This document shows, piece by piece, positions 31,921 to 35,531 of a DNA stretch of 55,413 nt. Source of the stretch: Candidatus Levybacteria bacterium GW2011_GWA1_37_16 (GTDB lineage Bacteria > Patescibacteriota > Microgenomatia > Levybacterales > UBA12049); contig CALRGR010000006.1 in NCBI GenBank assembly GCA_943357985.1, forward strand, positions 1 through 55,413, given 5' to 3'. The translations under genes were made by a program, and so were the position numbers. How positions within the stretch are numbered: position 1 is the stretch's first letter; every line of letters begins with the position of its first letter. Below the pieces are notes generated by a model, which saw nothing but the letters and a program-made list of their open reading frames with translations, ran no database searches and was not told where the DNA came from.

Positions 31921-32886
31921 ATGATAGAATATAAATTCATGAGAAAGGCTTGGATATTTCTAATAGTTGCTGTAGTTGTTGCTATTTTTGCGTATGGATT
32001 GAGCCTAAAGATTCTTGATAGGGAGTATGGTGTTACGTCTCCCCTGCCTTCATTCTTAAGCATAATAGAGAACAGCGAAGTCTCAACTTTAGACATTTGG
32101 ACGCCCGTTATAGGGGCTCTATTTACAAGTTCCGGCGTTCCTGAAATTTCCGCTAAATCGGCTCTTATTTATGACACAACTACCAAGAAGACGCTTTACT
32201 CTAAAAATGCTCTTGAGAGGCTTCCTATGGCTTCTCTCACCAAGATAATGACTGCCGTAGTAGCACTAGAAAACAGCAAAAAAGATAACTATATTGTTAA
32301 AGAGAGAGATTTGGTTGGAGAAGATAGCATGGGATTATCCAGGGGAGAAGTTATGAGCCTAAATGAGCTTTTGTATGGACTTATGCTTTACTCTGGAAAT
32401 GATGCCGCCGAGACAATTGCAAGCAACTACACAAAAGGACGTGAAGGATTTATTAAGGCCATGAATGATAAGGCAAACTCTTTGGGTCTTAAGGACACGC
32501 ATTTTACAAATCCAACAGGACTTGAAGGAGATGGCAATCAATACACAACTGTTCATGATTTACTTGTAATTACAGACTACGCAATGCGTTTTGAGCAGTT
32601 TGCAAAGGTAGTTGAAACTTTTCAACATCATATTCCATACACATTAGATCACAAAGAGTTTTTTCTGGAAAACACTACAAATCTTTTGACAAGTTACCCG
32701 GGAATCAAAGGTGTGAAGATAGGTTACACGCCGGAAGCCGGAGAGTGTTTGGTCACTTATCTTGATTACAAAGGCCACAAAATTATAGGAATTATTTTGG
32801 GGAGTGATAACAGAAGACAGGAAATGAAAGATCTTTTAGATTTTGCCTTAGAATCGGAAGGTGTTCCTCCCCCTCCCCACGGTTAA
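31921..32886 (+). CDS. dacA: D-alanyl-D-alanine carboxypeptidase (likely start at ATG 31939)
   Basis: LPMASLTKIMTAVVAL (SxxK); YSGNDAAE (SGN-type); IKGVKIGYTPEAG (KxG). Confidence 0.92.
   Translation: MIEYKFMRKAWIFLIVAVVVAIFAYGLSLKILDREYGVTSPLPSFLSIIENSEVSTLDIWTPVIGALFTSSGVPEISAKSALIYDTTTKKTLYSKNALERLPMASLTKIMTAVVALENSKKDNYIVKERDLVGEDSMGLSRGEVMSLNELLYGLMLYSGNDAAETIASNYTKGREGFIKAMNDKANSLGLKDTHFTNPTGLEGDGNQYTTVHDLLVITDYAMRFEQFAKVVETFQHHIPYTLDHKEFFLENTTNLLTSYPGIKGVKIGYTPEAGECLVTYLDYKGHKIIGIILGSDNRRQEMKDLLDFALESEGVPPPPHG
32847..32886 (+). repeat. dacA 3'-end repeat, copy R1 (authentic gene end)
   Basis: TTAGAATCGGAAGGTGTTCCTCCCCCTCCCCACGGTTAA = LESEGVPPPPHG*. Confidence 0.85.
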
Positions 32887-33218
32887 TTTAGAGATTTTTG
32901 CCTTTTTAACTTATGAACGTCTCCCCATTCCTGCATTAGTTTCATGATTGGAAGCAACGTCTTGCCATAGTCTGTAAGGGAATATTCAACATGAGGTGGA
33001 ATAACAGGGAATACTTTTCTCTTAATAATTCCATCATTTTCAAGCTCACGCAATTGTTGAACCAACATTTTCTGCGTGATACCTGAAATTCCTCTTTCCA
33101 ACTCGTTAGTTCTTAAGGAATTTGTCTTAACCATAAAAAGAATAAGAGGTTTCCATTTCCCACCTATGATATGTAGAGTTTCTTTTACCGATGAACATTC
33201 TATCGTTATTGTCTTCAT
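32883..33218 (-). CDS. HxlR-family winged-helix transcriptional regulator
   Basis: IIGGKWKPLILFMV; GISGITQKMLVQQLRELENDGIIKRKVFPVIPPHVEYSLTDYG. Confidence 0.93.
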   Translation of the reverse strand: MKTITIECSSVKETLHIIGGKWKPLILFMVKTNSLRTNELERGISGITQKMLVQQLRELENDGIIKRKVFPVIPPHVEYSLTDYGKTLLPIMKLMQEWGDVHKLKRQKSLN

Positions 33219-33233
33219 GCTTACTTTTTTATT

Positions 33234-33258
33234 AGTACCTTACTTTATAGTAGGTACT
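33234..33258. promoter_or_regulatory. Inverted-repeat operator candidate upstream of hxlR-like gene
   Basis: AGTACCTtactttatagtAGGTACT. Confidence 0.6.
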
Positions 33259-33293
33259 TGTACTTTAAGACATTATAGCATATAAATCAAGCC

Positions 33294-33956
33294 ATGGAAA
33301 GAGAAAAGCAAAATAGGTCTCCGCAGGAGTTAAATGCGGAATTTGGGAAAATTCTTGGTGCATTGCCCGGGCCAACTTCACAAGACTTTGAGGATAATTT
33401 TGAGATAAGCGAAGAAGCGCAGGCTGTTCTTGATGGTTTAATACCACGAGATTGGTTAGATGATGATCCTACAGGAACTGTGCGAGAGATATGGACTGAT
33501 TTAGCAAAAGTTGAAGCGTCTAAGAATAGACGTGAGAATAGCTTGTATGGAGGAATATTGATGTCTAAATTCCAAGAATTAAGGCCTTTTGTACAAGGAA
33601 CAGAAGCTTTTAGGGAACATTTACCAGAGGAGTTAAGATTATTTATTAAGATTGGGGGTGCTTGGGGAGAATATTTGCACGGCGATGACCAGGGAGGTAT
33701 TTTCCATTCGGAATCAGTAAGGCCAATTGAAGAAAGAAGTTATCAAGAGCTTTATCAGCGTGTTCGTTGGTTTGGTAAGGGTATATTTCCTGATCCATGG
33801 TGGAAAGAGCCGGACTATGCTAACGAACCTGCTTATCAAGAAATGGTGTCTTTGGGAAAAAGATGGAAAAATGAATTTGTGCAAAAGTATGGATATTCTC
33901 CGCTTGATGGATTTGGAAGAGAAATCGAATTCAGAGGCGACGGTAAAGAACTTTAA
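33294..33956 (+). CDS. Hypothetical protein (220 aa), no family recognised
   Basis: Long ORF divergent from hxlR-like gene. Confidence 0.55.
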   Translation: MEREKQNRSPQELNAEFGKILGALPGPTSQDFEDNFEISEEAQAVLDGLIPRDWLDDDPTGTVREIWTDLAKVEASKNRRENSLYGGILMSKFQELRPFVQGTEAFREHLPEELRLFIKIGGAWGEYLHGDDQGGIFHSESVRPIEERSYQELYQRVRWFGKGIFPDPWWKEPDYANEPAYQEMVSLGKRWKNEFVQKYGYSPLDGFGREIEFRGDGKEL

Positions 33957-33960
33957 AAGT

Positions 33961-33985
33961 TAGAAGGTGTCCCTCCCCACGGTTA
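33961..33985 (+). repeat. Displaced dacA 3'-end remnant, copy R2
   Basis: TTAGAAGGTGTCCCTCCCCACGGTTAA = LEGVPPHG*; 15 bp CCTCCCCACGGTTAA identical to R1. Confidence 0.8.
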
Positions 33986-34528
33986 AACACTTAGTGGAAA
34001 TTTTCTAAAAACAGTGTAGGTTTGAGAAATAAGAGGAATATCTACTTCTCCAATCTTGGGATTTTTTCTAAAGTCGTCTAATTGCATTCCCTCTCTTAAA
34101 CCACAGCTAACGCTGCTATATATTAGACATCCATTGGGCTTAAGCGTTCTCATTACATCGTCAAACTCTTCTTCTGAAAGGTGAACGTCTTGAATGAAGG
34201 CCGCATCGAAGGCCTCGTCTACAAAAGGAGAGTGTTCAATTTTTCCGTATAGTGCGTTTTTATTTTGGGAATGTGCCGTTTCCAGATTGGTCACTTTGCC
34301 GCTGTCCAGATTGACAATTTCTTCCGGGGTAAAAACAATACTTAGAGACAAGGTGTCATTCCCACTGCCCGGATAGTAGATTCTGGATATGGGAAATTTA
34401 TCCCTAATTCTTTGTAAATCTATTAGTCTTTGTAATCCTGTTGGTGCTACATCTTTTCTGGGAGCAAACTTATCTACCAAAAAGGTTGCTACTTTTTCTG
34501 CGGTTCTATTGCCAAGTCTTTCAAACAT
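33983..34528 (-). CDS. Class I SAM-methyltransferase-like protein
   Basis: ISRIYYPGSGNDTLSLSIVF; EAFDAAFIQDVHL; LKPNGCLIYSS. Confidence 0.65.
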   Translation of the reverse strand: MFERLGNRTAEKVATFLVDKFAPRKDVAPTGLQRLIDLQRIRDKFPISRIYYPGSGNDTLSLSIVFTPEEIVNLDSGKVTNLETAHSQNKNALYGKIEHSPFVDEAFDAAFIQDVHLSEEEFDDVMRTLKPNGCLIYSSVSCGLREGMQLDDFRKNPKIGEVDIPLISQTYTVFRKFPLSV

Positions 34529-34546
34529 TTTTGGATTATATCAAAA

Positions 34547-34585
34547 TTAGAGTCTGAAGGCATTACTCTCCCACAGCACGGTTGA
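34547..34585 (+). repeat. Displaced dacA 3'-end remnant, copy R3
   Basis: TTAGAGTCTGAAGGCATTACTCTCCCACAGCACGGTTGA = LESEGITLPQHG*. Confidence 0.7.
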
Positions 34586-34619
34586 TTGAACCACTGATTT
34601 AAGTTAGAATATAGACTCA

Positions 34620-34702
34620 GCCGTGGTGGTGGAATGGCATACACGGAGGCCTTAAGAGCCTTTGTCAGCAATGGCATGAGAGTTCGACTCTCTCCCGCGG
34701 CA
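34620..34702 (+). tRNA. tRNA-Leu (UAA)
   Basis: Class II; anticodon loop CTTAAGA; acceptor GCCGTGG/CCGCGGC. Confidence 0.92.
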
Positions 34703-34719
34703 CATTATGAGTTAGATTT

Positions 34720-35123: not shown

Positions 35124-35196
35124 GGTGGATGTAGTTCAACAGTAGAACGCCTGCTTGTGGAGCAGGAGGTCGCGGGGGCGGCACCCGTCATCCACC
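35124..35196 (+). tRNA. tRNA-His (GUG) with unusual D- and T-loops
   Basis: Anticodon loop TTGTGGA; G-1:C73; acceptor GTGGATG/CATCCAC; T-loop GGCGGCA. Confidence 0.8.
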
Positions 35197-35198
35197 CA

Positions 35199-35531
35199 CT
35201 ATTTTTTGGCTTTGGTTTCCTCTATGTCTTTGAGGAGTTCTGCTTTTAAAGCTTCCGCAGTTTTCCTAATCTTGTTCTCTATGTTTTCAGCTTTAGTCTT
35301 AAGTAAATCCCAAATCTTGTCATGATTATCATCTCTTACGTGTCTAAGAAATTCTTTTTTATCTTCCTGTGGAAGCTCGGATAAGACTGTATCTAAAACT
35401 GCATGGTGAATGTTGCTTTCGGCAAGAGACAGAAGATGTACTCTTTCATCCTGGGTTAAATCCATATCCGCAATTTCAATAGAAATTGACGTTGTGTCAA
35501 CTACGTGGCTATAAAAATGTTTATTTTTCAT
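35199..35531 (-). CDS. Hypothetical coiled-coil protein (110 aa)
   Basis: Helical Lys/Glu-rich ORF directly downstream of tRNA-His on the opposite strand. Confidence 0.5.
   Translation of the reverse strand: MKNKHFYSHVVDTTSISIEIADMDLTQDERVHLLSLAESNIHHAVLDTVLSELPQEDKKEFLRHVRDDNHDKIWDLLKTKAENIENKIRKTAEALKAELLKDIEETKAKK

Follow-up and report, generated by a model that had tools for sequence, protein, structure and literature searches.

Three copies of the dacA 3' end delimit two small gene cassettes in a Levybacterium genome and point to stepwise insertion at this gene end

In a Levybacterium genome (Microgenomates, Candidate Phyla Radiation) the last 13 codons of dacA, including the stop codon, were found three times in tandem (R1, R2, and R3), with unrelated genes in the two intervals between the copies. 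We read this array as a probable case (probability about 0.6) of tandem accretion of small att-flanked elements that regenerated the dacA end by site-specific recombination, in the manner of cis-mobilizable elements (CIMEs). The window, i.e., the whole stretch of 55,413 nt that was analyzed, is contig C6 of this 17-contig, 681,518-nt (0.68-Mb) genome.

The target gene encodes a dacA-type D-alanyl-D-alanine carboxypeptidase of 321 aa (31921..32886, forward strand; Pfam Peptidase_S11, E = 6e-48). An ortholog with a conserved PPxH C-terminus is present in most of the 73 genomes of the family. R1 (32848..32886, forward) is the current functional end of this gene. The R1-R2 interval contains a reverse gene for an HxlR-type regulator (32883..33218; Pfam HxlR, E = 6e-32) and, divergent from it, a forward gene for a 220-aa protein (33294..33956). 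It is closed by R2 (33960..33986, forward), which reads LEGVPPHG followed by a stop codon. The R2-R3 interval contains a single reverse gene, class I methyltransferase-like (33983..34528; Methyltransf_11, E = 9e-4, just under the Pfam cutoff), and ends with R3 (34547..34585, forward), which reads LESEGITLPQHG and a stop codon. The TTAA of R1 holds the stop codons of both the dacA repeat and the reverse HxlR gene, and the TTAA of R2 those of both the repeat and the reverse methyltransferase-like gene. R3 runs into a tRNA-Leu promoter, as read from the sequence (34582..34610, forward), whose -35 box TTGATT lies over the R3 stop codon and is separated by a 17-nt spacer from the -10 box TAGAAT. 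The tRNA-Leu(UAA) gene itself (34620..34703, forward) was located by ARAGORN. A preliminary description of this DNA had listed the three dacA ends and the cassette contents, with no integrase among them; all of this was recovered, with coordinates differing by no more than 1-2 nt. A tRNA-His(GUG) further downstream (35125-35199) was missed by ARAGORN; its T-loop is GGCGGCA where TTCxAxx is usual. A genome of the same genus (G034, L203) shares this loop, and AGCGTTA is found in G008.

All three segments keep the dacA reading frame. R3 is identical to R1 at 29 of 39 nt, in register and ungapped. R2 shares with R1 16 identical nt at the 3' end as well as GAAGGTGT, and two 6-nt gaps blur its left edge. 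Neither the R2 alignment score, in 4,000 dinucleotide shuffles of 32887-34619, nor the R3 DNA score, in 4,000 shuffles of the 3' part of this region, was reached once. Compared with a protein profile of dacA ends built from 48 relatives, R3 scored 24.5 bits, a value that none of 4,000 shuffles reached (maximum 21.5). The exact core CCTCCCCACGGTT has no site beyond R1 and R2 in the 681,518-nt genome, even with one mismatch allowed. It is thus not a scattered motif, which the preliminary description had named as an outcome that would speak against insertion. In a scan of 1,151 gene ends, taken from the same genome and from the loci of 46 relatives, the R1-R2 DNA match ranked 9th and the dacA match of a second genome, G008, ranked 4th; two matches ranked above R1-R2 and inspected resembled tandem paralogues or gene starts. 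By itself the R1-R2 DNA match is not unique. The evidence is the three copies R1, R2, and R3 taken jointly, together with the tRNA-Leu context and the second genome.

Several further candidates were rejected. The segment GGATTATA before R3, which could be taken for more of dacA (Leu-Asp-Tyr), serves the reverse methyltransferase gene as its -10 box (TATAATCC), and the motif of this box also precedes other reverse genes in relatives. A third candidate, in L038 at +4.1 kb, is a chance match within a reductase-like gene. Most of the extra matches to the tail profile were at chance level. What seemed a second dacA end in G065 (C17) arises because two contigs (L187/L188) share exactly 141 nt, an assembly k-mer. 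Several other assemblies also break within 450 nt past dacA, and the overlap in G065 suggests strain mixtures that differ at the dacA locus.

The neighborhood of dacA in relatives gives the order of events. Most relatives with a readable downstream region have a single dacA end directly beside tRNA-Leu, as the preliminary description had predicted for cassette-free genomes. The first tRNA after dacA is a same-strand tRNA-Leu(UAA), the ancestral downstream neighbor, in 28/49 family loci, and in 27/49 dacA lies within 150 nt of the next tRNA without a cassette. Many relatives have the dacA stop codon embedded in the -35 box of the promoter of this tRNA (AGTTGAAT, a spacer of about 17 nt, TAAAAT). 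In the window this context (GTTGATT, 17 nt, TAGAAT, tRNA-Leu) is present at R3 and absent from R1 and R2, which indicates that R3 is the original and oldest dacA end and R1 the newest. The methyltransferase and the HxlR/220-aa segments are therefore insertions. R1 resembles R2 more than R3, as expected from serial insertion in which R2 was displaced later than R3. These two observations support the insertion model put forward in the preliminary description.

The tRNA genes next to dacA vary in other ways. In 11/49 family loci (e.g., L033, L034, L038, L046, L060, L076) the first tRNA after dacA is a reverse tRNA-Pro, in several of them with a reverse tRNA-Leu right behind it, which points to repeated rearrangement of this tRNA pair. 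A truncated 5' piece of tRNA-Leu (GCCGCGGTGG) accompanies an intact tRNA-Leu in L041, about 40 nt past dacA, and in L057, just upstream of the tRNA-Leu; other sequence follows the piece, and in L057 it is palindromic.

A second case was found in Levybacteria RIFCSPLOWO2_01_FULL_39_10 (G008; L068/L151), which belongs to a different genus from the window genome and carries other genes between the repeats, as the insertion model had predicted. Its dacA ends at L068:6930, and the last 39 nt, stop codon included, recur 5.2 kb downstream at L068:12120-12158; beyond this copy come a reverse gene and, after it, tRNA-Leu. The cargo comprises a methyltransferase, tRNA-Gly, a DUF3800 gene, a degraded RAYT transposase and others. 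An empty site exists in the same genus (G010, L054), where dacA lies 56 nt from tRNA-Leu without a cassette. The two G008 copies are identical at 32/39 nt, and all seven differences fall on third codon positions, a pattern expected about once in 2,000 cases under unconstrained drift. This indicates that both copies diverged as working dacA ends, and thus that the new end came from the gene of another, closely related lineage. Likewise, the middle of the repeat takes the form of 36 different pentapeptides among 48 genomes, yet is common to the copies of each genome, which argues that donor and host are close. In a comparison of dacA identity between G008 and genomes of its genus, no sharp import boundary was seen. 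Both in the window (R1/R3) and in G008 (R1/R2) the homology begins at the identical base, the first base of an almost invariant Leu codon with which the last 13 codons of dacA begin, and stops at the stop codon. Only two junctions show this shared boundary clearly, and that of G008 also abuts the end of the degraded RAYT (L068 11757-12119), so that the boundary there could have another cause. In G009 (L052), too, the region between dacA and tRNA-Leu holds a REP-associated RAYT (Y1) transposase, 36-683 nt after dacA, whose hairpins are CCCACATG/AAGTGGGAA. Among the roughly 68 genomes with dacA, duplicated ends of this gene were found in only 2.

The cargo genes of the window are rare among relatives. 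The 220-aa protein has no match in Pfam, NCBIfam, PHROGs or PADLOC and no homologs in viral contigs, plasmids or phages, and its structure prediction (pLDDT 45) was unusable. One other genome of 374 in the class encodes a homolog; its contig also carries a tyrosine integrase, at a distance of about 2.5 kb. Of 281 class genomes, 5 others encode weak homologs of the methyltransferase-like gene, and none of these belongs to the same family; neither this gene nor the 220-aa gene had a homolog in other genomes of the family. HxlR relatives occur in 32/73 family genomes, none of them adjoining dacA as a close match. The cassettes are not set apart by GC content. A cargo foreign to the lineage fits insertion.

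We propose that the dacA 3' end serves as an integration site. Incoming DNA would bring its own last 13 dacA codons and recombine with the resident end, which may have happened twice in this lineage; each time dacA would be completed by the incoming end and the old end pushed downstream. In a first step the methyltransferase segment would have been inserted, leaving R3 beside tRNA-Leu, and in a second step the HxlR/220-aa segment, leaving R2 behind. The reaction was probably conservative site-specific recombination of the tyrosine-recombinase type, by an enzyme that may act from elsewhere or has since been lost, and the cassettes, of about 1.1 and 0.6 kb, would be decayed att-flanked elements. 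Site-specific recombination is favored by the fixed 39-nt unit in two genera, the regenerated gene, the stepwise order and the foreign cargo. The window cassettes contain no integrase, recombination or transfer genes. The only recombinases of this kind in the host genome are two Xer-like tyrosine recombinases, whose types are conserved throughout the family; a serine recombinase (PF00239) is absent. In the 73 family genomes listed, no tyrosine recombinase on the contig of dacA was closer to this gene than about 49 kb. Of the likeness to tRNA-targeted integration drawn in the preliminary description, the displacement of the end is borne out, and the integrase-type reaction is inferred. The search for an intact donor element, an excised circle or a viral carrier was negative, and viral contigs contained neither dacA relatives nor dacA-end patterns. 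The 39 nt have no inverted-repeat core, and the copies have no hairpin in common. Like the missing integrase, these absences and the small number of genomes with duplicated dacA ends speak against site-specific recombination.

The main rival, natural transformation with homology-facilitated illegitimate recombination, is a serious but rather less probable explanation. A related Levybacterium donor with dacA and a different neighbor would pair within dacA, and an illegitimate join just before the end of the resident gene would leave the old tail as a scar; the overlap of dacA with the tRNA-Leu promoter would favor survivors that retained this tail. ComEC is encoded in the host genome, a mobile integrase is absent from it, and other relatives carry cargo at this place without tail copies. 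The third-position-only differences in G008 show that the incoming end there was a working dacA end. Natural competence is known in Saccharibacteria (PMC10633639), and homology-facilitated illegitimate recombination has been described in three naturally competent species (PMC3240628). However, junctions formed in this way should vary, whereas the remnants R3 in the window and R2 in G008 start at exactly the same position, 39 nt before the end. Moreover, R2 and the middle copy in G008 do not abut the tRNA, so that preservation of the promoter leaves them unexplained.

Apart from accretion by a mobile element, a dedicated Levybacteria system for inserting cassettes of one or two genes at the final 39 nt of dacA, with its recombinase encoded elsewhere, seems unlikely. 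Under such a system one of the two conserved Xer-like enzymes may be the recombinase, new cassettes may enter beside dacA, and the array may be an integron-like one in a coding gene. A tandem duplication of dacA, with the downstream copies mostly lost by fusion or fission and unrelated genes filling the gaps, was already disfavored and is very unlikely. In its favor, compact genomes are subject to DNA loss, and a duplication is expected to leave partial gene copies; no tool result gave this scenario direct support. Against it, dacA sequence upstream of the last 13 codons is absent at R2, R3, and R2 of G008, which leaves the fusion or fission named in the preliminary description as a contrary outcome unsupported; the cut falls at the same codon in two genera, and the copy beside tRNA-Leu is the old one, not the new one. 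Finally, it is most improbable that the copies resemble each other by chance or that the 39 nt serve repeatedly as a functional motif, a terminator or hairpin, between convergent genes: the stop codon of the convergent gene does lie in the repeat-end TTAA in 3/4 cassettes, but the copies preserve the dacA reading frame, the shuffles (0/4,000) never reach their scores, the core occurs nowhere else in the genome, the segment was not found between other convergent gene pairs of the host genome, and the copies fold inconsistently, three of four no better than shuffles.

To our knowledge, gene uptake by genome-reduced Patescibacteria is poorly known and few insertion sites are defined in them. In the open-access literature, no earlier description of a dacA insertion site or of such insertion in this group was found. 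A precise 39-nt unit at a conserved dacA, beside a tRNA promoter that overlaps its stop codon, makes the question testable, and Levybacteria metagenomes could be screened for the parent element and for dacA loci in the empty, single or tandem state.

Insertion at a gene end with regeneration of that end is a known style of mobile-DNA insertion. The dacA cassettes differ from integrons, as the two host recombinases score far below the integron-integrase cut-off and the repeats share no hairpin. They also differ from IS200/IS605-RAYT elements: the host genome has no PF01797 (Y1 transposase) match, and the hairpin ends present in G008 and G009 were not seen at the window cassettes. The SCC composite islands of staphylococci consist of tandem insertions at the 3' end of rlmH, separated by repeats of this end, and SCC elements use large serine recombinases (Ccr). 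Tandem insertion at the 3' end of one coding gene is common to both, but the host genome lacks PF00239 and the target is dacA, not rlmH. Archaeal integrated elements are described mobile-element classes that generally carry their own recombinase, unlike the dacA cassettes. They integrate in the 3' ends of protein-coding genes, with att repeats from 8 bp upward (PMC6563490), and, as in the dacA case, the end of the gene is supplied by the element. The closest comparison is with the CIMEs of streptococci, where ICEs, IMEs, and CIMEs accrete in tandem at the 3' ends of fda, rpsI, and rpmG and classical CIMEs measure 1.2-13 kb (PMC7563491). The dacA cassettes are smaller (about 0.6 and 1.1 kb), their target is dacA in Levybacteria, no parent ICE or IME was found for them, and their mobilization is putative. 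Like CIMEs, they are short gene sets without recombination or transfer genes, lying between direct repeats of the target end, with the reading frame regenerated, dacA ending in R1 with the family consensus and an empty site in relatives; and streptococcal accretion, with up to three elements in tandem, resembles the dacA array.
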